Part shown: piece after piece, positions 36,150-52,578 of the stretch | Numbering within the stretch: position 1 is the first letter of the stretch | How the letters are laid out: each line of letters begins with the position of its first letter | From: Leifsonia sp. TF02-11 | GTDB taxonomy: Bacteria > Actinomycetota > Actinomycetes > Actinomycetales > Microbacteriaceae | Reading direction: 5' to 3' | NCBI RefSeq assembly: GCF_017565305.1 | Contig: NZ_JAGEKP010000004.1 | Span: forward strand, 248,001-312,000 | DNA length: 64,000 nt | The notes under the pieces: generated by a model | What the model was told of the DNA's origin: nothing | What the model saw: only the letters and a program-made list of their open reading frames with translations | The model's database searches: none | Translations under genes and position numbers: made by a program

Positions 36150-36629
36150 TCAGCTGTGTCTTTCCACGCGCAGGATGCAGGTGGCCCCCGGCTTGCCGGC
36201 GGGAAGGGTTCCCGACCACTTCTGGGTGGCGTGACCCGACACTCCACGGACATCGACTTCGTGGACGCCGATGGTCGAACCCGCGGCCTGGAGGGAGACG
36301 TAGATCCGGTAACTCTGCTCGGTCGACGTCGGATTGGTGACCGTCCCGTCGAAACGCGCGGGGGACGCATCGGCCGAGCAGGTACCGAGCTTCACGTCCT
36401 TCAGCGCCCCCACGTAGCCCGTCTGCGTCCCCGGTCTGTGCGTGATCTGAGTGACCGCGCCGTCATGGGAGGCGGCCGCCGCGGCAGTCGGGGTGGTCGG
36501 ATGATGAGGCGCCGATGCCGTGCAGCCGGCCACGCCCATCACCACCAACACCGCCAGGGGAAGGGTCATGACAGCGGCGCGAGCCGCTCTGCCCAGGATG
36601 CTGCTGGTCATCAGGATGCTGCTGGTCAT
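36150..36629 (-). CDS. Small lipoprotein coupled to the repeat surface protein
   Basis: A 159-residue predicted lipoprotein: hydrophobic stretch [14 protein letters not shown] with lipobox VAGC (C36), then a Thr/Ala/His-rich linker and a beta-rich domain of about 95 residues with two cysteines (GTCSAD and ATCILR) that could pair. The domain looks like the small FxLYD-type secreted modules, a tentative similarity. The first 12 residues are a six-residue unit repeated twice (MTSSIL), caused by an 18-nt duplication. The ATG overlaps the stop of the 2209-residue gene as ATGA, so the two are probably made together. An ATG at 36611 is an alternative start. Confidence 0.8.
36594..36629 (-). repeat. 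18-nt perfect tandem duplication at the lipoprotein start
   Basis: 36594-36611 and 36612-36629 are identical 18-nt units, each starting with an ATG on the minus strand. The duplication gives two in-frame starts; the outer one overlaps the upstream stop codon. Confidence 0.9.
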
Positions 36630-39600
36630 TCGGAGGCCTTTCTGCGACGGATGGTGATCAGTGCGGACGAGAGGGTCAGACCGGCGAGGATCGAGAGGAT
36701 CGCCAGCCCGGCCGCGAAAGCGGGGAACGAGGTCGCGCCGGTGGCGGCCAGGACTCCGAGCGGGATCACCACGCGGTTGCTCGTCGCTGTCACCGGCTTG
36801 CCGCCCGGGTCGGCGCCGGTCGCGGTCGCCGTGTTCGCGACGGAGCCGGCGCCCAGGTCGGTCCTGGTGAGCGCGTAGGTCGCGGTCGCGGTCACGGACT
36901 GGCCGGGGGTCAGCGTTCCCGGGGTCGCCGGCCAGCTGTAGCGGATCGCGGACAGGCCGGGCAGCGGGTCGGCGATCGTGATCCCCGTCAGCACGACGTT
37001 GCCGGTGTTCGTCGCCAGGAACGTGTAGGTGACGGTTTCGCCGGGGGCTCCCGTACCTCCGGACGTCAGCCGGCCCGACTTCACGAGCGACAGACCGGGT
37101 TCGGGGTGCAGCGGAACCGTGGTCGAATCCCGCCCGGTGACCGTCGTGCCGCGTGGATCGGTTCCCGTGGCTGTCGCGGTGTTCACGACCCGCCCTGCGT
37201 CGACATCGGCCTGGGTGAGCACGAAGGTCGCCGTGGCGGTCACGGACTGGCCGGCGTTCAGGGTCCCGACGGCGCCGGGCCAGGCGTAGGTCAGCGGAGA
37301 CAGCCCGGGCAGCGGGTCGCTGATCGCCACACCGGTCAACGTGACGTTGCCCGTGTTGGTGGCCGTGAAGGCGAACCGGACGGTGTCGCCGACCGCACCG
37401 GTCGCGCCGGCGTCGAGGCCGCCCGTCTTCACGAGGGTGATCGCCGGTGCCGCCGTGATGGACACCGTGGTCGTGTCGTCGCCGGTCACGGGATCCCCGC
37501 CGGGGTCGGTGCCCGTGGCGGTGGCGGAGTTGACCACAGCGCCGGCATCCACATCCGCCGCCGTCAGCACGTACGTCGCCGTGGCGGTGACGGACTCCCC
37601 TGGCACCAGCGTCCCCGGGGTTCCCGGCCACCGGTACGTCAATGCCGACAGACCGGGCAGCGGATCCGCGATCGTGACACCGGTGAGCGGCACGTTCCCC
37701 GTGTTGGTCGCCGAGAAGGTGTAGTCCACCCTGTCACCGACGGCGCCCGCGGCACCGGCGGCCAGACCGCCGGTCTTCACCAGCGCGATCCGCGGAGCGG
37801 GATCCACGGGGACCGTGGTCGTGTCGTCGCCGGTCACCGGATCCCCACCGGGGTCGGTGGCCGTCGCCGTCGCCGTGTTCACCACGGACCCCGCAGTGGT
37901 GTCCGCCTGCGTGAGCGCATACCTCGCCGTCGCAGACACGGACTGACCAGGCGTCAGCGTTCCCGGGGTTCCCGGCCAGGCGAAGGTCAGTGCGGAGAGG
38001 CCGGGGAGCGGGTCCGTGATCGTGACACCGGTCAGAGTCACGTTCCCGGTGTTCGTGGCGGTGAACGTGTAGTCGACCAGGTCGCCGACGGCGCCCGTCG
38101 CGCCCGCGGCGAGCGCGCCCGTCTTGAGCAGGGTGATCCCCGGCGTCTGCGGCACCTGGACCGTCACCGTGTCGTCACCGGTCACCGGATCCCCGCCCGG
38201 GTCGGTGCCCGTCGCGGTGGCGGTGTTCAGCACAGAGCCGGCATCGACATCCGCCTGGGTGAGCGTGTATGCGGCGGTCGCGGATACGGCTTGACCCGAC
38301 AGGAGCGTCCCCGGCGTGCCCGGCCAGGTGAACGTCAACGGTGACAGACCCGGCATCGGGTCGGCGATCGTGACTCCCGTGAGCGTCACGTTCCCGGTGT
38401 TCGTCGCGGTGAACGTGTAGTTCACCGTCTCGCCGACGGCACCCGGCGCACCCGCGGCGAGGCCTCCCGTCTTGACCAGGGCGATTCCCGGAGCGGGCGT
38501 GATGGAGACGGTCGTCGTGTCGTCACCGGTCACCGGGTCGCCGCCCGGGTCGGTGCCCGTGGCGGTGGCGGTGTTGACCACCGCGCCGGCGTTCACGTCC
38601 GCGGCGGTCAGCGTGTATGTCGCCACGGCGGTCACCGACTGGCCGGGGGCCAGCGTCCCAGGGGTTCCGGGCCAGCTGAACGTCAGCCCGGACAGCCCGG
38701 GAAGCGGGTCGGTGATCGTGACACCGGTCAGGGTCACGTTCCCGATGTTCGTCGTGGAGAACGTGTAGTCGACCACGTCACCGGGGGCGCCCGTCGCGCC
38801 GGCGGCCAAGCCGCCGCTCTTGACCAGGTCGATCGCCGGCGTCTGCGGCACCTGGACCGTCGCCGTGTCGTCACCGGTCACCGTGGCGCCACCGGGATCC
38901 GCTCCCGTCGCCGTTGCGGTGTTCACCACCGAACCGGCGTCCACATCGGCCTGCGTGAGCGCGTAGGTCGCGGTCGCGGTGGCCGACTGTCCCGGCGTCA
39001 GCGTTCCGGGGGTGCCCGGCCAGCTGAACGTCAATGCCGAGAGCCCCGCCAGCGGGTCGGTGATGGTGACACCGGTGAGCGTCACGTTCCCGGTGTTGGT
39101 CGCCGTGAACGTGTAGTCGATCGTGTCCCCGACCGCACCGGTCGCACCCGCGGCCAAGTCGCCGGTCTTCACCAGGCTGATCGCCGGCGACTGCGGCACC
39201 GCGACCGTCGCGGTGTCGTCACCGGTCACCGTGGCGCCACCGGGATCCGCTCCCGTCGCCGTTGCGGTGTTCACCACCGACCCGGCGTCCACATCGGCCT
39301 GCGTCAGCACATACGTCGCCGTCGCCGTGGCGGTCTGGCCCGGAGTCAACGTCCCCGACGCGCCCGGCCAGGTGAAGGTCAGCGGCGACAGCCCCGGCAG
39401 CGGGTCCACGATCGTGACTCCGGTCAGCACGGCGGTTCCCGTGTTGGTCACCGTGAACGTGTAGTCCACCGTGTCGCCGACCGCGCCGGTCGCTCCCGCG
39501 GCCAGTGCACCGGTCTTCACCACGCCGATGGCGGGGGTGCGAGCGATCTCGACGGTCGCCGTGTCGTCGCCGGTCACCTGGACCCCGCCGGGGTCCGCTC

Positions 39601-42600
39601 CCGTCGCCGTTGCGGTGTTCACCACCGAGCCGGCGGCCACGTCGGCCGGGGTGAGCGCATACGTCGCCGTCGCGGTCACGGACTGACCAGGGCTCAGCGT
39701 GCCCGGCGTCGCCGGCCACGTGAAGGTCAATGCCGAGAGCCCGGGCATCGGGTCCGCGATCGTGACGGCGGTGAGTGTCACCGTGCCCGAGTTCGTGGCG
39801 AGGAAGGTGTAATGGACGATATCGCCTGCGGCACCGGTCGCCCCCGCGGCCAGATTTCCGGTCTTGACCAAGGTGATCGCCGGCGCGGGAGCGATGGAGA
39901 CGGTGGTCGTGTCGTCACCGGTCACGCTGGCGCCGCCGGGGTCCGTGCCCGTCGCGGTGGCCGTGTTCACCACCGCCCCGGCGTCCACATCGGCCTGGGT
40001 CAGGGCATACGTCGCCGTCGCGGTCGCCGATTGGCCGGGTGTCAACGTGCCCGGTGCTCCGGGCCAGGTGAACACAACTGCCGACAAGCCAGGGAGCGGG
40101 TCCGTGACGGTGACACCCGTCAGCGTCACGTTGCCCGTGTTCGTCACCCGGAACGAGTAGTCCACTCGGTCACCGGCCGCACCGTTCGCGCCTGCGGCCA
40201 GGCCACCCGTCTTCACAAGGGCGATGCCCGGAGCGGGAGTGACCGGGACGGTGGACGCGTCGTCGTTCGTGACCGAGACTCCGCCGGGATCGGTTCCCGT
40301 CGCGGTGGCTGTGTTGACCACCGAGCCGGCATCCACATCGGCCTGCGTGAGCGTGTACGTCGCGGTCGCGCTGGCCGCCTGGCCGGGGTTCAACGTCCCT
40401 GGTGTGCCCGGCCAGGTGACGGTCGGGGCGGACAACCCCGGCAGCGGGTCCGCGATCGTGACGCCGGTCAGGGTCACGTTGCCTGTGTTGGTCACGGTGA
40501 ACGAGTAGTCCACCGTGTCGCCCGCCATACCGGTCGCGCCGGCAGCGAGCCCACCGGACTTCACCAGAGCGATGGCCGGGGCGGGCGCGATCTCGATGGT
40601 CGTCGTGTCGTCGCCCGTCACATCGGCCCCTCCGGGGTCCGTGCCTGTGGCCGTCGCGGTGTTCACCACCGAGCCGGCGGCCACGTCCGCTGCCGTCAGT
40701 GTGTAGGTCGCCGTCGCTGTAGCCTCCTGTCCCGGGAGCAGGGTCCCCGGCACACCCGGCCAGGCGATGGTCAACGCGGACAGCCCCGGCAGCGGGTCCG
40801 TGATCGTGACTCCCGTCAGTGTCACGTTCCCCGTGTTGCCCGCGACGAATGTGTAGTTCACCGTGTCACCAGCGGCGCCCGTCGCACCTGCGGCCAGTTC
40901 GCCCGACTTCACCAGGCTGAGGCCGGGAGCGGGTGCGACATCGACCGTCGCCGAATCGACACCGGTCACCGTTCCACCACCCGGCCCCGTGCCCGTCGCC
41001 GTGGCCGTGTTCACGACCGACCCCGCATCCACATCCGCCTGAGTCAGAACGTAGGCGGCCACCGCAGAAGCGGCCTCCCCGGGCGACAGGGTCCCCGGCG
41101 TTCCCGGCCAGGTGAAGGTCAGCGCGGACAGCCCGGGCAGCGGGTCGGCGATGGTCACGCCCGTCAACGTCACGTTCCCGGTGTTGGTGGCGACGAACTT
41201 GTAGCTCACCGTGTCCCCCGCCACGCCGCCGGCGCCCGCAGCGAGCGCACCCGTCTTGACTAGTGTGATCGCCGCAGCGGAGGCCACCGAGACCGTCGCC
41301 GAATCCGTCGCCGTCACCGAAGCTCCGCCGGGATCCGTTCCCGTCGTCGTCGCCGTGTTCACGACGGACCCGGTGTCCGCGTCCGCCTGGGTCAGAAGAT
41401 AGGTGGCCGTCGCCGCCACCGACTGTCCCGCCACGAGCGTCCCCGGGGTCCCCGGCCACGAGTAGGTCAGACCGGAGAGACCCGGCAGCGGGTCCGTGAT
41501 CGTCACGCCCGTCAACGTCACGTTCCCGGTGTTGGTGGCGAGGAACGAGTAGTTCACGGTGTCCCCGGCGGCGCCGGTCGACCCGGACGCCAACGCGCCG
41601 GTCTTGACCAGGGTGATCTGACCGCCCTGCGCCAGCGGAACCTGCGTCGACGACGGACCCGACTGCGTGGGAGCCGGAGCACCGGGAGCGGTCCCGTGCG
41701 CGATCGCGGTGTTGTCGATGGTCCCGGCGGCGACATCGGCGGCCGTCACCACATAGGACGCCGTACACGTCGTCTGCGCGCCTGGAGCCAGATCGCCGGG
41801 CGGACACACCGGCGCCGTCATCGACCCGCTCCCGGTGAACGTCGTCTCGGTGATCCCGATGCCGGACAACGCCACCGTGCCGGTGTTCGTGACCAGGAAC
41901 GAGTAGTCGATCGTCTCGCCCACCGTCAGCGCGGTCACCGGCAATCCGCCCGATGTCGCGGACTTCACCAGCGACAGCGACGGCGCATCCAGGACGGTCG
42001 TCGTGACCGAGCTCGTGTTATTCGTCTCGTTCACGTCGACGTCGGCACCCGAGACGCTCGCGCCGTTCACCAGCGTTCCGCCGGAGGTCGTCGGAGCCGT
42101 ACCTGTCAGAACGATGGGGCCGAAGGTGGCGCCGGCGTTCAGGATGCCGGGTATCAGCGCGGAGGCGTTGCCTCCGGAGAGATCGATCAGGGACGGGACG
42201 GTGCCGTTCTGCGACGGCGTCCAGCCTGCCGGCGTGCGCGTGCACACCAGGTCGTTGCCCGACAGCGAACAATCCGCTTGACCCGACACGATGCTCGGGT
42301 TGGTCACGCCGGCGGGGACGGCGTCCTTGACGATGAAGCCGTGCGACGTCGAGCTTCCCGCCGCATTCGACACCCGAATCTGCCAGGTGATCGGGCCGCC
42401 CGCTTCCACCGAGGCAGGGCCGGTCTTCGTCAGGGACAGATCCGCCCGCGGCAACCAGGCCAGCAGATGCACTCCGCGTGTCGCCGACAGCGGGTCGCCG
42501 AAGGCTGTCCCCGGGGTGTTCACGGTGATCGTCCTCATCGTGTGGAAGGTGAAGGTCACGCTCGAGATCAGGCCGCCGACCCGGAGCATCGCGTACGGGG

Positions 42601-43255
42601 ACGCGGGCGCCTTGCACGGCGTCGCCTGCAGGGCTGTCGGGAGGTACCTCAGCCGGTTGCTGGTGAAAGTCTGCTTGGACGGATCGAGCGGCGAGTTCAG
42701 CGTGATCTGCCCGGTGGCGGGCGCCGAGCCGTTGATCGCCGAGAACGAGACGTCCTGCCACTGCGCGGCGCACTGGGTGACCGGTGTGGTGTTGGTCTCC
42801 GTTCCTGTCGCGAGCCCCAGGACGGGATTGATCACCGGATGAGGGAAGGTCACGGTCGTCGTGTGCGTCACGCACTCCGCGGTGTACCCCACGGCCGTGT
42901 TGGAGCCCAGGCATCCGGACGGAATCGTCAGCGGCTTCATCTGGATGCTGGTGTCCGACTGATACGTGGGCGTCTGCGCAGGGGCGCTGATCGAGATCGG
43001 CCCGAGCGGGGCCATGTTCCCCGGGTACGGAGCCGTCGCCGTCGTTCCCGCTGTCGTCCACGGGAGGATCTGGGCGTGCTGGGACAGCGCCACATCGGAG
43101 ATCACCGGATCCTCGAGGTCCTCGGCCGCCTGGGCCGGTGCGGACAGCACCGCGAGCGATGCCGCCACGGCCAGTGCGGCGATCACGGCGGTGAATCGCA
43201 CCGGCAATGAACGCGTGAGGGTGTCCGACGACGAGTGGGACCGGGACCGGCGCAT
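36626..43255 (-). CDS. Giant secreted DUF11/DUF7507-type repeat protein with LAATG sorting signal
   Basis: A 2209-residue surface protein. A Sec signal peptide ends near residue 43 (APAQA). A unique region (44-270) and a DUF11-like domain (about 271-424) follow, then one divergent repeat (427-546) and fourteen 116-residue repeats (547 to about 2168) that start with variants of [19 protein letters not shown] and contain [20 protein letters not shown]. The end is LAATG at 2169-2173, a hydrophobic stretch and RRRKASE, the layout of a sortase substrate of the LAxTG (class E) kind. All eight cysteines (115, 128, 162, 214, 329, 338, 484, 497) lie before the repeats. GGAG precedes the ATG. Probably a wall-anchored stalk or adhesin; binding partner unknown. 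No sortase gene is in the window. Confidence 0.88.
36752..41617 (-). repeat. Fourteen tandem 348-nt coding repeats
   Basis: The DNA underlying residues 547 to about 2168 is a tandem array of 348-nt units with strong nucleotide identity; for example segments encoding TGDDT and the [19 protein letters not shown] block recur almost unchanged. Such arrays can gain and lose units by recombination and are prone to assembly collapse. Confidence 0.9.
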
Positions 43256-45451: not shown

Positions 45452-45889
45452 TCAGCGCGCGTTTCGGCGAATGAACGCCAACGCCATCCGGTACGACTCG
45501 AACCCGAACCCGGCGATCACGCCCGTCGACACCGCGCTGATGACGCTCGTGTGCCGGAACTCCTCGCGCGCGTGCGGGTTGGACAGGTGCACCTCGATGA
45601 CGGTTCCTCCGGCCTTCGTCACGAGCGAGACCGCGTCGCGAAGCGCGTACGAGTAGTGCGTCCAGGCTCCGGCGTTGAGGATGACCGGCGCGCCGCTGTC
45701 GGCCGCTCCGTGCAGCCAGCCCAGCAGCTCGCCCTCGGTGTCGGTCTGACGCAGATCGATATCGAGGTCCGGCGCGTCCTCCTGCAGGACCGCCCTCAGG
45801 TCGTCGAGCGTTCCCGCGCCGTAGACGTCGGGCTCGCGGGTGCCGAGCCGGCCGAGGTTGGGGCCGTTGAGGACGAGGACGGTTGCCAT
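45452..45889 (-). CDS. aroQ: 3-dehydroquinate dehydratase, type II
   Basis: Third step of the shikimate pathway. The 145-residue type II enzyme has VLNGPNLGRLGTREPDVYG (catalytic tyrosine and arginine region), ILNAGAWTHYSYALRDA and EVHLSNPHAREEFRHTS with the catalytic histidine. The ATG at 45889 gives the family N-terminus. It follows the DUF3052-like gene after 5 nt. Confidence 0.97.
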   Translation of the reverse strand: MATVLVLNGPNLGRLGTREPDVYGAGTLDDLRAVLQEDAPDLDIDLRQTDTEGELLGWLHGAADSGAPVILNAGAWTHYSYALRDAVSLVTKAGGTVIEVHLSNPHAREEFRHTSVISAVSTGVIAGFGFESYRMALAFIRRNAR

Positions 45890-45894
45890 GCCGA

Positions 45895-46281
45895 TCACCC
45901 TATCGATGCTTCGCCGTCGGCGAGCGGACGGACGCGCACGGCCGACCACACGTCGTCGATCGCGACATTGCTGATCGGGCGCCAGCCGAAGGCTCCGGCC
46001 TCCCGGATGATCGTGTCGCGGTTGACATCGGCGCGGCCGCCCTTCGGGTACAGGAACCAGACCGCCCGAGCGCCGCTCAACGCGGGGAGCTCGGTGCCGA
46101 ACCGTGCCAGAAGCTCGTCGCGCGTGCGCACGAACGTGACGGAGACGGCCGCCTCCGCAGGCGCGACCTCGACGACGCCGTCCGGCAGCTCGCCGAGCAC
46201 CGTGCGCTCGTCCGGGCCCGCTCCGACGAGCAGTGTCTCCTCGGGCTTGATCAGCAGCTTCTCGGCGATCGTCTTGGGCAT
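45895..46281 (-). CDS. DUF3052-like protein within the aro operon
   Basis: A 128-residue protein of unknown function. AEKLLIKPEETLLVGAG, AVWFLYPKGGRADVNRDTI and the ending around DVWSAVRVRP follow the layout of actinobacterial DUF3052 proteins (a KLGIKPG start, a WLLTPK strand, a WS-R ending), but the similarity is by eye. The ATG shares a base with the aroB stop (TGATG) and aroQ follows 5 nt later, so it is co-translated with shikimate enzymes. No catalytic motif is visible. Confidence 0.75.
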   Translation of the reverse strand: MPKTIAEKLLIKPEETLLVGAGPDERTVLGELPDGVVEVAPAEAAVSVTFVRTRDELLARFGTELPALSGARAVWFLYPKGGRADVNRDTIIREAGAFGWRPISNVAIDDVWSAVRVRPLADGEASIG

Positions 46282-47360
46282 CAGGAGCCGATCTCCTGGT
46301 AGGCGGCGAAGAGCAGACTCTGGTCGGGACCGGCGAGGACGGTCGGCCTGGCGAGGTCGTCGAGCACGATGAACCGCAACAGGCTCCCGCGCGCCTTCTT
46401 GTCCCGCTGCATGGTCGCCAGCAGCGTCTGCCAGCGGCCGGCCGGGTACGTGGTCGGCAGGGTGAGCGACTCGAGGATCCGGCGGTGCCGGTCGACGACC
46501 TCGTCGCTCAACCGGCCGCTCAGGCGCGCAAGCTCCGCGGCGAAGACCATGCCGACCGACACAGCGGCGCCGTGTCGCCACTGGTAGCGCTCTGCGTGCT
46601 CGATCGCGTGGCCGAGCGTGTGCCCGTAGTTGAGGATCTCGCGGAGGCCCTGCTCGGTGAAGTCCTCGCCGACCACGCGTGCTTTGATCCCGACCGACAG
46701 CTCGACCAGCCGACGGAACTCCGGCGACTCGGGATCGGTCGCGACGTCGACGTCGCGCTCGATGATGTCCAGGATCTCCGGCTCGGCGATGAAGCCGTAC
46801 TTGACGATCTCCGCGAATCCGGCCAGCAGCTCGTTGCGCCCGAGGGAGGTCAGGGTGTCCAGGTCGCAGACCACCGCCGCGGGCGCGTAGAACGCGCCGA
46901 CGAGGTTCTTGCCCTCAGCGGTGTTGATGCCGGTCTTGCCTCCGACGGCGGCGTCCACCATCCCGAGCACGGTGGTCGGGACCTGGATCAGGCGCACGCC
47001 GCGCAGCCAGGTGGCGGCGACGAATCCGGCCAGGTCGGTCACGGCGCCGCCGCCGAAGCCGATCACGGCGTCGGACCGCGTGAAGTCGGCCTGGCCCATG
47101 ATGCCCCAGAGGAAGGAGGCGACCTCGACGCGCTTCGCCGCCTCGGCGTCGGGGACCTCGGCCAGCAGCACCTCGTACTGCCCGGTCAGCGACTCACGCA
47201 GCTCCGCGGCGGCCGCCCCGAGCGTCGGCGGGTGCACGACGAGCACCTTGTTCACCCCGGAACCGAGGTGCGACGACAGACCGAACCGGAGGCCGCGCCC
47301 GATGACGACCGGGTACTGGTCCGCTCCGGCGACGAGGATCTCGGTGGGCTGGTCAGTCAT
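46281..47360 (-). CDS. aroB: 3-dehydroquinate synthase
   Basis: An NAD- and metal-dependent enzyme forming 3-dehydroquinate from DAHP. The 359-residue protein has GFGGGAVTDLAGFVAATWLR (NAD binding), QVPTTVLGMVDAAVGGKTGIN, EIVKYGFI and the metal-binding NYGHTLGHAIEH. Overlaps aroK by 8 nt. Confidence 0.98.
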   Translation of the reverse strand: MTDQPTEILVAGADQYPVVIGRGLRFGLSSHLGSGVNKVLVVHPPTLGAAAAELRESLTGQYEVLLAEVPDAEAAKRVEVASFLWGIMGQADFTRSDAVIGFGGGAVTDLAGFVAATWLRGVRLIQVPTTVLGMVDAAVGGKTGINTAEGKNLVGAFYAPAAVVCDLDTLTSLGRNELLAGFAEIVKYGFIAEPEILDIIERDVDVATDPESPEFRRLVELSVGIKARVVGEDFTEQGLREILNYGHTLGHAIEHAERYQWRHGAAVSVGMVFAAELARLSGRLSDEVVDRHRRILESLTLPTTYPAGRWQTLLATMQRDKKARGSLLRFIVLDDLARPTVLAGPDQSLLFAAYQEIGS

Positions 47361-47862
47361 GCGTCTCCTTCATCGGTCCTGAGTCTTCGATCCAACGCGC
47401 GATCTCCTCCACGATGGAGTCGATCGGCCGGGTCGAGGTGTCGGCGGTGTAGTCCGCCAGCGAGCGGTACAGCGGGGTGCGCGCCTCGACGAGCCGCTCC
47501 CACGATTCGAGATCGGTCACGAGCGGGCGTTTGCTGTTGGTGATGCGCGCGGCGATGGCGTCGGGCTGCACGGTCAGCAGCACGACACGCGTCGCGGCCA
47601 GGTCTGCCTGCGTGTCCGGGTCGAGCACCGCGCCGCCGCCGAGCGATACGATGCCCGGCCGGGCCACGGCTTCTGCGACCGCAGCCCGCTCCAGCGCACG
47701 GAAGTACGGTTCACCGTGCTCTGCGAAGATCTGCGCGATCGCACCGTGCTCGGCGACCACGACGGCGTCGGTGTCCACGAACGACAGGCCGAGCCGCCGG
47801 GCCAGGCGCTTGCCCAGCCGCGTCTTGCCCGCTGCGGGAGGGCCGATCAGGACGATCGTCAC
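47353..47862 (-). CDS. aroK: Shikimate kinase
   Basis: Phosphorylates shikimate. The 169-residue P-loop kinase has GPPAAGKTRLGKRLA at the N-terminus, FVDTD for metal/shikimate binding, FRALE with the shikimate arginine and LGGGAVLD. The lid region carries TNSKRPLV. GTG start, 6 nt after aroC. Confidence 0.96.
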   Translation of the reverse strand: MTIVLIGPPAAGKTRLGKRLARRLGLSFVDTDAVVVAEHGAIAQIFAEHGEPYFRALERAAVAEAVARPGIVSLGGGAVLDPDTQADLAATRVVLLTVQPDAIAARITNSKRPLVTDLESWERLVEARTPLYRSLADYTADTSTRPIDSIVEEIARWIEDSGPMKETHD

Positions 47863-47868
47863 GGTCGT

Positions 47869-49077
47869 TCAGGCGTAGGGCGCGCTGACGCGCTCGGTCG
47901 CCAGATTCTCCGGGATGGCGTCGAGGTAACCGCGCAGGTTGCGGGCCGTCTCCGCGACGGAGTCTCCCCCGAACTTCTCGAGCACCGCGTTGGCCAGCAC
48001 CAGGGCGACCATGGCCTCGGCTACGACGCCCGCGGCCGGCACCGCGCAGACGTCGGAGCGCTGGTGGTGGGCGGGAGCGGCCTCACTGGTCGCAATGTCG
48101 ATCGTGCGCAGCGCGTGCGGGACCGTCGCGATCGGCTTCATGCCCGCACGCACGCGCAGGACGCCACCGGTGCTCATTCCGCCTTCGGTGCCGCCCGCCT
48201 TGTCGCTGGTCCGAACGATCGTCCCGTCTTCTGCGATGAGCTCGTCGTGCGCCTGCGACCCGCGACGCGTGGTCGTCAGGAATCCGTCGCCGACCTCCAC
48301 ACCCTTGATCGCCTGGATGCCCATGAGCGCTGCCGCGAGCTGGCCATCGAGTCTGCGGTCCCAGTGCACGTGCGAGCCCAGCCCCGGCGGGAGGCCGTAG
48401 GCCAGGACCTCGACGACGCCGCCGAGGGTGTCGCCGTCTTTGTGGGCGTCGTCCACCTCCGCGACCATGCGCTCGGAGGTCGCGGGGTCGAAGCAGCGCA
48501 GCGGGTCGGCGTCGAGCGCCTCGACGTCGGCCGGGGTGGGCAGCGGGGCGTCCTCCGGCACGCGCACCGGGCCGATCGACAGAGTGTGGCTGACCAGCGT
48601 GATGCCGAGCTCGGCGAGGAACGAGCGGGCGACCGCGCCCAACGCGACGCGCGCAGCGGTCTCGCGGGCGCTGGCGCGCTCCAACACCGGACGCGCCTCG
48701 TCGAAACCGTACTTCTGCATGCCGACCAGGTCGGCGTGGCCCGGGCGCGGACGCGTCAGCGCGGCACCGCGACCGGTCGCGAGCTTCTCGGGGTCCACCG
48801 GCTCCGCGCTCATCACGTCGACCCACTTGGGCCACTCGGTGTTGCCGATGCGCAGGGCGATCGGGCTGCCGAGGCTCAGACCGTGACGCACACCGCCCGA
48901 GATGTCGAGGGCGTCCTGCTCGAACTTCATGCGCGCACCACGACCATAGCCGAGCTTGCGACGGGCGAGATCGGCCCGGATCGCGTCCAGCGAGACGGGG
49001 ACTCCTGCGGGGAGGCCCTCGAGGACGGCGATGAGTTCGGGGCCGTGGGATTCCCCGGCCGTGAGCCAACGAAGCAT
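47869..49077 (-). CDS. aroC: Chorismate synthase
   Basis: Makes chorismate, which TrpE elsewhere in the window uses, from EPSP with reduced FMN. The 402-residue protein has [51 protein letters not shown] and [17 protein letters not shown], all family signatures. The open frame is much longer upstream, but the ATG at 49077 gives the canonical [12 protein letters not shown]. Confidence 0.98.
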
Positions 49078-49118
49078 GATTCGATTCTGGCACAGCGGCG
49101 CGGTCGCGCTTCGCGCCG

Positions 49119-49622
49119 TTACGCCTCGCCCTTGCGGTCCCCGGACGTGAAGATGTCGGAGTGCACGACGAACGCGTGCAACAGCCTGTCGTCGTCCGAC
49201 CGGAACCCGTGCCGCTCGTAGACCGGCACGGCGCGCGGGCTGGAGTGCACCGTGACGCGTTCGAGCCCGAGCGCGGCGGCGCGCGCCAGCACGGCATCGA
49301 TCAGGCGGCCGCCGATCCCGGTGTCGCGCCGGTCGGGCACGACGTACGCGCACTGCAGATCGCCGGAGGCGCGCTCGAACCGCCGCGCGCTCGGCACCCG
49401 ATCGAGGACGGCGAGCCAGGTCATACCGAGCACGCGGCCGTCCTCGACGGCGACGAAGCACTCGTGGGTGCCACGGCTCGCGGCCCAGGCCGCGAACCGT
49501 TCAGCGAAGACCTCCCTGGTGTCGTCGGGCTCTCCCCCGGCCTCCCGGAGGGAGTCCCACCGCAGGCCGCCGACGGCAGCCCACTCGTCCGGTCGCGCCG
49601 GACGCACCTCGACGTCGGACAT
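49119..49622 (-). CDS. GNAT family N-acetyltransferase
   Basis: A 167-residue acetyltransferase-fold protein: [12 protein letters not shown] at the start, a central [25 protein letters not shown] carrying the acetyl-CoA-binding R/Q-x-x-G-x-G/A pattern as RDTGIGG, and VPVYERHGF near the end. The substrate is unknown. It lies between aroE and aroC, 9 nt after aroE and 41 nt before aroC, an insertion in an otherwise uniform shikimate block. Confidence 0.85.
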
Positions 49623-49631
49623 TCCGCTCGG

Positions 49632-50972
49632 CTACTCGGCTTCTGCCGCGTCGGAGCCGTCGCCGAGCGGTGCGCCCTCCGCGTCGATCCCGACGGCCGT
49701 GAGCATGGCGTCGAGCACCTCGTCCTCGTCAGGAAGCGGCTGCAGCGGGTCGCCGGAGACGAAGATCCGCACCTGGAGCAGCGCCTGGTGGGCCAGCATC
49801 GCCAGGCCGGAGACCACCGTCCCGCCCACCAGCTGCCAGGAGCGGCCGAGCGAGCTGGGCCACGGGTCGTACGCGACGTCCAGGAGCACTGCCCTGCGCC
49901 GGGTCGAATCGGTGTAGACCGCCGCCGTAGAGGCGCCGCCAGGAAGCGTGCTGATGACGAGCTCCGGCACGTCGAGCGAGCGATCCGCCTGCGCGAACGA
50001 ACGGATGCGCACCATCAGGCCGAGCTCGTGTGCGAGCGGTTCCAGCCAGAGGCTCTTCTGCAGGTCGCGCACGTGCACGTCGACCCGCTCCGCTCCCAGC
50101 TCGGCAGCGGCGACGAGCGCGGACGCGGCCGTCGCTCCCCCGCCGAGCACGTGGACGTAGCGGGCGCTCTGCAGCCCGGCGGCACCGAGCGCGCGCACGA
50201 TGCCCGCAACATCCGTGTTGAAGCCGCTGACGGCGTCGGCGTGGAGCAGCACGGTGTTCGCGACCCCGGTCTGCTCCGCGACCCGGTCGACGGACGTCAG
50301 CAACGGGACGACGGCCTGCTTGAGCGGCATCGTGAGCGAAAGGCCGCGCCACTCCGGCCCCAGGCCGTCGATGAACGAGGCCAGGCCGTCCTCGGCGACG
50401 TCCACAGGCTCGTACGACCACGGCAGGCCGAGAGCGGCGTACGCCGCACGGTGCAGGGCAGGAGACTTGGAGTGCCCGATCGGCGAACCGAGGACGGCCA
50501 GGCGGCGCGTCGGCTCCGTCACGGGCGGCGCGGTGCCGGTCTCGGCAGCGGTCTCCGGGAGGTCGACGACGTTCTCCTCGGAAGATTCCGGCTCGACCAC
50601 CTCGACGACTTCGACGACTTCGACGACTTCGACGACTTCGACGACTTCGACGACTTCGACGACTTCGACGTCAGGCTCTGCCTCGGTTGCGGCCCCGTCG
50701 ACCTCGGCAGCGGCTCCGCCGTCGCTGTCGTCGCCGTCCAGGGGCTCCCCGCTGTCCGCTGCTTCCTCGGCCTCGGCGATGGCAGCCTCCTCGGCCTCCG
50801 CCTCGCGCTCGGCCTCGACCAGAGCGGCGATCCCCGCCTCCGCCGACGCCTCGGACACGCCGTCCTCGACCGAGAGGTCCTCGCTCTGCACATCCTCGAC
50901 CGGCACGGCAGGCGCTTCCGCCGGCGTACTGCTCGCATCGCGACGCGACGGGGTCTTCGGTTTCTCATCCAT
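49632..50972 (-). CDS. aroE: Shikimate dehydrogenase with acidic N-terminal extension
   Basis: Reduces dehydroshikimate to shikimate with NADPH. The enzyme domain is residues 157-430: LGSPIGHSKSPALH (shikimate serines 168/170), catalytic K218 in LTMPLKQAV, and the dinucleotide loop HVLGGGATAASALVA. The first 150 residues are an unusual, very acidic Glu/Asp/Ala/Val tract including eight EVV triplets (about 103-126) from a 9-nt microsatellite. The full-length ATG overlaps mltG by 8 nt, which supports it, but V151 is a GTG at 50522 that would give a normal 296-residue AroE, without a ribosome binding site. Whether the extension is made is uncertain. Confidence 0.88.
   Translation of the reverse strand: MDEKPKTPSRRDASSTPAEAPAVPVEDVQSEDLSVEDGVSEASAEAGIAALVEAEREAEAEEAAIAEAEEAADSGEPLDGDDSDGGAAAEVDGAATEAEPDVEVVEVVEVVEVVEVVEVVEVVEVVEPESSEENVVDLPETAAETGTAPPVTEPTRRLAVLGSPIGHSKSPALHRAAYAALGLPWSYEPVDVAEDGLASFIDGLGPEWRGLSLTMPLKQAVVPLLTSVDRVAEQTGVANTVLLHADAVSGFNTDVAGIVRALGAAGLQSARYVHVLGGGATAASALVAAAELGAERVDVHVRDLQKSLWLEPLAHELGLMVRIRSFAQADRSLDVPELVISTLPGGASTAAVYTDSTRRRAVLLDVAYDPWPSSLGRSWQLVGGTVVSGLAMLAHQALLQVRIFVSGDPLQPLPDEDEVLDAMLTAVGIDAEGAPLGDGSDAAEAE
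50603..50670. repeat. 9-nt microsatellite inside aroE
   Basis: Seven full copies of CGACGACTT plus five bases run without a mismatch. In frame on the minus strand they encode repeated Glu-Val-Val. Copy number could change by slippage without breaking the frame. Confidence 0.95.
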
Positions 50973-52578
50973 AGCCGGGGTTGTCCTTCATCCACTGCTG
51001 CCATTTCGCGACAGCCGCGTCGTGCTCGTCGGCCGTCGTCGAGAAGATCGTCTCGCCGGTCTTGAGGTTCCAGGTCACGAAGAACATCCACGGACCGTCC
51101 GCGGGGTGGACCACCGCGTTGATAGCCAGGTCGCCCGGGTTCGAGATCGGCCCGACCGGGAGCCCCGCGTGCGCGTACGTGTTGTACGGGTTCGAGGCGT
51201 CGGCGCGCTCGGCGTCCGTCGTCTCCACCCGGTGCGTGTTTCCCGTGCCGTAGGCGACCGTGGCGTCCGACTGCAGATCCCAGCCCTGCGCGAGCCGGTT
51301 CAGGAACACACGGGCGACCTTGGGATAGTCGTCCTTGAGGCCGGCCTCGCGCTGCACGATCGACGCGAGGACGACCGTGTTCCACCGGTCGCCCGGAGCG
51401 ACTCCTGCTTCGTCCAACGCCTGGAACGAGCGGTCGACCATGGTCTTGATCACGTCGTGCGCCGTCGCGCCCGGGACGAACGTGTAGGTCGCGGGGAACA
51501 GGAAGCCCTCGAGCGTCTTCGCCTCTGCGGGGACGCCGAAGTCGGCCGGGTTGGCTGCCGCCTGCTGCAGCTCGGCGAGCGGGATCTTCGTCGCATCGGA
51601 CACCGTCTGGAGCGCATCCTTCTCGGCCGTCCCCTCCGGGATGACCGCGGTGTTCTGCATGCGGTTCGCGGGATCCTGCAGGGCCGTCAGCGCCGCCTGG
51701 GCGCTCATCCCCTTCGCCAGCTTGAACACACCGGGCTGGAACTCGACCTCCGGGTGCTGGCGGAGCAGCAGCTGGTAGAAGGCGTCGTAGCTCTTGGTGA
51801 CGCCCGCCTTCTGCAGGTTCGTCGCGATCGAGCCCCCGTTGTCGCCGGACTTGATCGTGAACATGACCTGGCCGGTCCCCGACCCCGTGAAGTCGTTGTC
51901 CACCGGCGACAGCGCGGTGATGAGCTTGGCGACCTGGGGCTGGAACGCCGCGTACGCGCCCCCGGCGAGGCCGCCGAGCACCGCGACGACGACGGCGGTC
52001 ACGACGACCGGCTTGACCCAGCGCCGTCGACGCTTGGGCGGCTTGTCGTGCGAGAGGTAGTTCTGCTGGCGCCACGCCAGCGGGTGCTCGGAGTCCCCGC
52101 CCCCGACCTCGCCGCGATCGTCGGACAGCGGCGAGAAGATCGCGTGCACCGGGCTCCCGACGTGATCGTCGGCGGCCGTTCCGTGCGCCGCCTCGTGCCG
52201 CGCCGCCGCGCCGACCGTCTCGCGGCCGCGCGTCGTGTCGGGCTCGCGGTCGACCGAGATCGGACCGGTCACCACGGAGTCGAAGTCCAGCCCGGCGAGC
52301 GTCGCCGACTGGGCGGTCGTCTCGGCAGGGGGCGGGGTCCAGGGGCCAGGGGTCTGCGGGTTGCGTTGGTCGGCGGGCACAACCGGGGAATCGGCTGCCG
52401 CGGGGGCAGGCTGAGGCTCCTGTGCGCGCTGAGCGCCCGTGGTGTCCTGAGCTTGCTTGGCCTCGTGCGCCTCCCTGGCCTCCCGCGCCTCGCGTCGGGT
52501 CATCGGCTGCCGGTTCACGGCGGGGAAGACGGGCGGCTCCGGCTTCTCCTGCGGGTTCTGCGACAAACTAGGGTCCAA
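50965..52578 (-). CDS. mltG: Endolytic transglycosylase MltG
   Basis: Cleaves nascent peptidoglycan strands at the membrane. The 537-residue protein has a long charged cytoplasmic part (1-182, with a REAREAREAHEAKQAQ helix), a membrane segment at about 190-211, a LysM-like part and the YceG domain with FLFPATYTF, catalytic E411 in ASIVQREAG and YNTYAHAGLPVGPISNPG. The predicted TTG start overlaps ruvX by 11 nt; an ATG at 52503 (residue 26) is an alternative, and neither has a clear ribosome binding site. Confidence 0.92.
   Translation of the reverse strand: MDPSLSQNPQEKPEPPVFPAVNRQPMTRREAREAREAHEAKQAQDTTGAQRAQEPQPAPAAADSPVVPADQRNPQTPGPWTPPPAETTAQSATLAGLDFDSVVTGPISVDREPDTTRGRETVGAAARHEAAHGTAADDHVGSPVHAIFSPLSDDRGEVGGGDSEHPLAWRQQNYLSHDKPPKRRRRWVKPVVVTAVVVAVLGGLAGGAYAAFQPQVAKLITALSPVDNDFTGSGTGQVMFTIKSGDNGGSIATNLQKAGVTKSYDAFYQLLLRQHPEVEFQPGVFKLAKGMSAQAALTALQDPANRMQNTAVIPEGTAEKDALQTVSDATKIPLAELQQAAANPADFGVPAEAKTLEGFLFPATYTFVPGATAHDVIKTMVDRSFQALDEAGVAPGDRWNTVVLASIVQREAGLKDDYPKVARVFLNRLAQGWDLQSDATVAYGTGNTHRVETTDAERADASNPYNTYAHAGLPVGPISNPGDLAINAVVHPADGPWMFFVTWNLKTGETIFSTTADEHDAAVAKWQQWMKDNPGYG

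Follow-up and report, generated by a model that had tools for sequence, protein, structure and literature searches.

Among the core enzymes of aromatic amino-acid synthesis is shikimate dehydrogenase, AroE. The Leifsonia protein described here matches monofunctional bacterial AroE (NCBIfam NF001311; best-scoring PDB chains 4xij and 4p4g) over residues 155–405, and none of the AroE sequences matched in the PDB covers its residues 1–146. Like AROM, DHQ-SDH and other shikimate-pathway fusions (PDB 7u5s, 2gpt), it consists of AroE with an addition in front; the difference is that here a scan of residues 1–149 gives no Pfam or NCBIfam match at an E value of 1 or better.

A second point of comparison is RNase E, whose disordered, compositionally biased noncatalytic region is reported to contain tandem repeats and short conserved motifs, the authors suggesting that the repeats are the progenitors of such motifs (PMC4435900). 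In Borg elements, repeats are likewise reported to create disordered protein regions (PMC9879509). The likeness to RNase E, that of a catalytic domain joined to a variable, repeat-rich region holding a conserved short motif, would be one of architecture only: Leifsonia AroE is a different enzyme, its extra region is N-terminal rather than C-terminal, it has a single motif whose partner is only putative, and we do not count it as a member of that class. Judged from its sequence, it appears to be a known kind of architecture in a variant set on a well-known enzyme, with a tandem EVV repeat as a probably ordinary part. Among the matches listed in a literature search over titles and the beginnings of abstracts, which covered few subscription papers, no paper on this extension was found.

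The aroE locus and the layout of its product

The window, by which we mean the whole 64,000-nt stretch of Leifsonia sp. TF02-11 DNA that was analyzed, contains the following features of interest.

45452..49622, minus strand: genes for a GNAT acetyltransferase, aroC, aroK, aroB and aroQ (class II dehydroquinase), downstream of aroE
49632..50972, minus strand: aroE, encoding a shikimate dehydrogenase extended at its N terminus (446 aa, ATG start)
49635..50510, minus strand: shikimate dehydrogenase catalytic part, residues 155–446 (Pfam, NCBIfam and PDB matches)
50520..50522, minus strand: GTG codon 151, proposed internal start, not conserved (start-codon comparison)
50523..50972, minus strand: acidic N-terminal extension, residues 1–150 (composition, domain scans)
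50523..50732, minus strand: hypervariable linker from motif block to catalytic core (sequence comparison)
50593..50670, minus strand: tandem array of GTCGTCGAA units, translated as EVV repeats (TRF; perfect over 50602–50670)
50733..50870, minus strand: conserved motif block, residues 35–80, VEDGVSEASAEAGIAALVEAEREAEAEEAAIAEAEEAADSGEPLDG (alignment, pN/pS)
50754..50852, minus strand: predicted helix, residues 41–73 (AlphaFold2, shallow three-sequence alignment, model poor overall)
50965..50972, minus strand: mltG end and aroE ATG overlapping by 8 nt, ATGGATGA (−7 register in 28/28 genus genomes)
50965..52578, minus strand: mltG (YceG-like), the gene upstream, overlapping aroE (Pfam)

By Pfam, the gene order along the minus strand is ruvX, mltG, aroE, the GNAT acetyltransferase gene, aroC, aroK, aroB, aroQ (class II), efp and nusB; ruvX is preceded by an 885-aa ORF that we take to be alaS. 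By family match, the 446-aa frame is the shikimate dehydrogenase AroE: the equivalog model NF001311 scores 247.4 bits over residues 155–405 (curated cut-off 235) and the substrate-binding domain PF08501 scores 81.6 bits over residues 160–241 (cut-off 27), with the C-terminal SDH_C domain PF18317 at 13.9 bits (cut-off 25.8). Among the 39 PDB sequences that match AroE, no best stretch starts before residue 147. By the family models, similarity begins at residues 155–160, in keeping with the initial annotation, which had placed the start of the dehydrogenase near residue 155 and had described a highly acidic added part of 150 residues. The composition of that part agrees: residues 1–150 contain 47 Asp or Glu against 5 Lys or Arg, for a net charge of −42, with no aromatic residue and no Cys. 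The same bias recurs elsewhere: each of the 27 extensions measured has a negative net charge (−13 to −54) and contains 0–6 aromatic or Cys residues. Aligned across 23 species, the extension has a common layout, namely a leader of 15–74 residues before the letters GVSEA, the conserved block, and a linker of 23–79 residues.

Probable translation of the extension

The genus set comprises the window's own genome, 24 further genomes of the same genus and 3 more, that is, 28 Leifsonia genomes with one genome per species. In all 28, the extension starts at an ATG that overlaps the mltG stop by 8 nt in the same register, and in 27 of them the frame is open into the AroE core, giving extensions of 80–159 residues. 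Relatives lacking an open frame, which the initial annotation had named as evidence against a real extension, are therefore not the pattern within the genus; nearly all relatives outside it have no stretch that corresponds to the extension. The sole frameshift (genome G005, locus L011) lies at the linker/core junction behind an extension of 91 residues. If this frameshift were real, the frame of the core would be left without any ATG, GTG or TTG over the preceding 60 codons, and we therefore suspect an assembly error here rather than a real break.

An open frame alone carries little weight, since this stretch is GC-rich and its antisense frames, too, are open over most of their length; on the plus strand, an ORF of 887 aa overlaps aroE. 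More telling are the substitutions. Pairwise pN/pS is 0.271 in the block and 0.298 in core codons 10–90 (253 pairs, 23 species), and in the two remaining sense frames of the block's DNA it rises to 1.86 and 1.88. Broken down by codon position over 26 species, differences in the block amount to 0.10/0.14/0.40, close to the 0.12/0.12/0.42 of 34 core codons; for the 34 codons directly preceding the core the figures are 0.56/0.63/0.61, and for the first 12 codons of the extension 0.47/0.50/0.51, the latter two stretches having been compared ungapped. These patterns support the view that the block is under protein-level selection and constrained like the catalytic core, and that the first 12 and last 34 codons of the extension are not. 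That the extension is coding, and is so throughout the genus, is well supported by the sequence comparison, from which we infer a single polypeptide as the cellular product.

The initial annotation had offered two options, a real extension or a separate translated region before an internal GTG start, and it is the former that the overlapping ATG (28/28) and the frame-specific conservation favor. A GTG does stand at codon 151 (50520–50522), as had been implied, with a Shine–Dalgarno match of 2 of 6. A start codon at this position, however, is found only in the window and at loci L024 and L025 among the 27 loci compared (Shine–Dalgarno matches 2–4 of 6), and no start position upstream of the core is common to the whole genus. 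What speaks for a separate peptide or an untranslated region, besides codon 151 itself, is that GTG codons are scattered before the core in several relatives, some behind a good Shine–Dalgarno sequence (6 of 6 in L023 and L046). Another GTG, nine codons into the core alignment and inside the LAVLG strand, recurs at 22 of 27 loci. Against this reading, locus L005 is devoid of ATG, GTG and TTG over the 60 codons preceding the core, 27 of 28 genomes lack a stop before the core, and the conservation of the block is frame-specific. The unshared position, the overlapping ATG and this conservation together disfavor an internal start, which we consider very improbable.

The conserved block

The block, of about 40 residues, opens with E[DN]GVSEAxAE, continues through IA..V, EAER-like residues (VEAER) and an Ala/Glu-rich stretch, and then reaches P. 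Alignment of 23 species shows no variation at 17 of 46 positions, G, V, S, E, A, I, V, E, R and others being the same in 23/23 while about half of the synonymous sites differ. Together with the letters GVSEA it was found in 26 of the 28 genus genomes. The remaining two (G017, locus L024; G022, locus L025) are small, at 2.6–2.7 Mb, and their block is degraded, with Pro-rich repeats of 54 and 60 nt instead. Scored against shuffles, the degraded block is still recognizable, as its score is reached by 0 of 1000 shuffles for L025 and by 5 of 1000 for L024. With no more than a degraded match in these two members, the block is not indispensable. In a search at E 0.001, one match per genome was obtained in 27/28 genus genomes, always at aroE; the weakest was that of G022 (E 5.5e-4), and G017 had none at this threshold. 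No copy of the block was found in other proteins of the window's own genome.

Comparison of the block with known domains was negative against PDB sequences (no match at E 10), and against Pfam the 23 members gave scattered weak matches only, to three families in 1–2 members each, with a best E value of 0.46. An AlphaFold2 model, built from three sequences, places one helix at residues 41–73, with mean pLDDT values of 68, 84 and 81 for residues 41–50, 51–60 and 61–70 and of 30–53 for the remaining ten-residue stretches of the extension. Overall, the model is poor (mean 46.7, pTM 0.36), so that the predicted helix is supportive only, and the helix call for the Ala/Glu-rich stretch, drawn from a three-sequence alignment, counts as weak evidence. 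A 30-residue segment of the block peaks near helix periodicity (105 degrees); among 2000 shuffles of the window's block, 65% attain its best 18-residue hydrophobic moment. The earlier proposal of a disordered extension seems right in part: it probably holds for the linker, whereas residues 41–73 are predicted to be helical and lie in a strongly conserved block.

Several known short elements were considered and set aside. Unlike the encapsulation peptides of bacterial microcompartments (PMC12339742), the block has a hydrophobic moment that is not above shuffles; beyond this negative amphipathic-helix test, the shell protein PF00936 occurs in 0/28 genus genomes, with positive controls in E. coli and Synechococcus elongatus (2/14). 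A role as family 1 encapsulin cargo is disfavored by the presence of the shell family PF04454 in just 1/28 genus genomes, not the window's. The one genome concerned (G013, locus L199) carries a family 1 encapsulin gene, E 3e-77, the sole one among the 28 Leifsonia genomes. A Pup-like degradation tag finds no counterpart either, PF05639 being present in 0/28 genus genomes and the control being positive in Corynebacterium glutamicum (1/14).

Repeat turnover in the linker

The feature that had headlined the initial annotation, an EVV microsatellite of seven perfect 9-nt repeats, is real, but it sits in the variable linker. TRF reports a 9-nt array over 50593–50670 with 8.7 copies, 97% matches and a score of 142; the perfect period-9 stretch within it measures 69 nt (50602–50670, 7.7 copies) and reads (EVV)n. 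For comparison, perfect stretches with periods of 3, 6, 12 and 15 reach at most 19–27 nt anywhere in the 64-kb window. When the window's own genome was searched with a 27-nt pattern, 3 mismatches being allowed, the perfect array proved unique to the aroE locus.

The same search returned a weaker copy, with 2–3 mismatches, on contig C23 (locus L093, about 1480–1690), where an imperfect 9-nt unit lies inside the very acidic, Asp-rich tail of an ORF. Upstream of that tail the protein resembles, on reading by eye, a HAD-type hydrolase.

Across the genus the repeats in the linker differ by species, with units of 9 nt in the window, 36 nt at L002, 15 nt at L007, 54 nt at L024 and 60 nt at L025. The AroE core of L002 is 94% identical to that of the window, yet the same linker carries the 36-nt repeat; in genome G187, whose core is identical to the window's at 255 of 270 residues, the linker contains copies of DGDHDGSD. 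Repeats are frequent in the genus linkers but not universal, those of L014 and L019 showing no array at a TRF score of 40. Sequence comparison supports a linker that turns over with repeats, and the occurrence of other repeats in the same linker of close relatives points to the EVV array being young and species-specific. The array looks like one outcome of this turnover rather than the functional heart of the extension.

Distribution outside Leifsonia

Within the family Microbacteriaceae, 124 of 147 genomes from other genera were read at aroE; the other 23, many of them fragmented or reduced, were left out. Upstream of aroE, mltG is found in 118 of these 124 loci, and in 116 of the 118 the distance from the mltG stop to the AroE core is at most 76 nt. 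Both exceptions belong to one genus, g44, with extensions of 107 (L043) and 89 (L046) residues, and AroE of g44 has an acidic insertion inside the AroE domain too. No comparable acidic extension is evident at the six loci without mltG nearby, two of which have upstream reading frames that stay open for 78 (L157) and 126 (L197) codons but differ in composition. From 15 genomes of other families, five loci were read, and the extension is absent in all five.

Searches with the block agree with this distribution. Matches occurred in 10 of 398 genomes of the family, all within the genus, and among 396 genomes of the order in the window's own genome alone; the two sets overlap partly, and the coarse pre-filter is such that very diverged copies of the block could escape. 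It is on these searches that the absence outside the genus rests, and not on a pattern scan of genome contigs, which is insensitive (140 stretches, of which 2 were confirmed, both from Leifsonia).

Homology between the extension of g44 and that of Leifsonia finds no support, the score of the block profile being reached by 870 (L043) and 191 (L046) of 1000 shuffles; for two short leaders taken for comparison, L033 and L031, the corresponding figures are 213 and 409. In a tree of the AroE core and MltG over 57 loci, g44 groups with two genera that lack the extension (support 85). Given this position, two gains and one gain followed by loss and divergence are both possible.

Proposed role and alternatives

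We propose that Leifsonia AroE would be made from the mltG-overlapping ATG as one polypeptide, whose extension would have three parts: at the front a leader, short and variable, next the block of about 40 residues with its formed or formable helix, and then a linker that is mostly acidic and probably disordered. The block may serve as a docking motif for a candidate partner protein, with the linker as a flexible spacer whose sequence would be of little weight; the spacer would be rebuilt in each species, often by tandem-repeat expansion, the EVV array being perhaps the latest such event in the window's species. A conserved, helix-prone motif joined to a charged linker that varies in length and sequence is a usual docking design. 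To the proposal that a flexible tether presents a helical docking motif to a putative partner, with binding and the spacer role both conjectured from the layout, we assign a probability of about 0.5. By proximity only, AroQ, AroB, AroK and AroC would be the first candidate partners. A more ambitious version, in which the block gathers AroE with AroB, AroQ, AroK and AroC into a loose shikimate-pathway assembly and species re-tune the length and charge of the spacer by tandem-repeat expansion, strikes us as unlikely.

The extension could instead be an acidic tail that confers solubility or resistance to crowding, an entropic bristle with no specific partner, in which the block would act as a stiffening, charged single helix. 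The uniformly negative charge of the 27 measured extensions and their few aromatic or Cys residues would suit such a tail, as would a block with no convincing match to known domains in the PDB or Pfam. A tail driven by composition should not, however, preserve ordered invariant residues, and the invariant letters are kept in order in 23/23 species even though about half of the synonymous sites differ; nor are the first 12 and last 34 codons of the tail conserved like the block. We regard this alternative as doubtful. The conserved block is also what is left unexplained if the extension arose as a repeat-driven insertion of neutral or slightly harmful effect, which persists because AroE puts up with added N-terminal sequence. 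The linker and leader do behave in this way, and g44 carries an unrelated-looking extension at the same place; for the extension as a whole we hold such an origin to be quite improbable.

The extension might also fold back on AroE itself, regulating its activity, its oligomer state or its NADPH site. Within the genus the block occurs as a single copy and on AroE alone, and a precedent of a kind exists in the DAHP synthase of M. tuberculosis, which N-terminal extra-barrel elements are reported to regulate (PMC7144000). A linker that ranges from 23 to 79 residues and varies in net charge fits a tether more readily than it does a fixed fold-back, and the AlphaFold2 model is too poor for judging docking on the core; on balance, fold-back regulation seems a rather unlikely role. 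The tethered docking motif remains the reading that we prefer.

Should that reading hold, Leifsonia AroE would offer a small and tractable case for the origin of interaction motifs in the disordered tails of housekeeping enzymes, and one that also bears on the question of whether shikimate enzymes assemble in bacteria; such an assembly, if true, would parallel the fused AROM enzyme with separate chains. For annotation, the evidence favors the mltG-overlapping start and suggests that Leifsonia AroE should not be cut to its core.

A further repeat-rich gene in the window

Apart from aroE, the window contains a minus-strand ORF of 2209 residues (36626–43255) with 15 DUF7507 stretches and DUF11 domains, whose DNA comprises 13.9 copies of a 348-nt repeat (TRF). 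Its C-terminal end has a hydrophobic segment followed by basic residues, resembling a cell-surface anchor.
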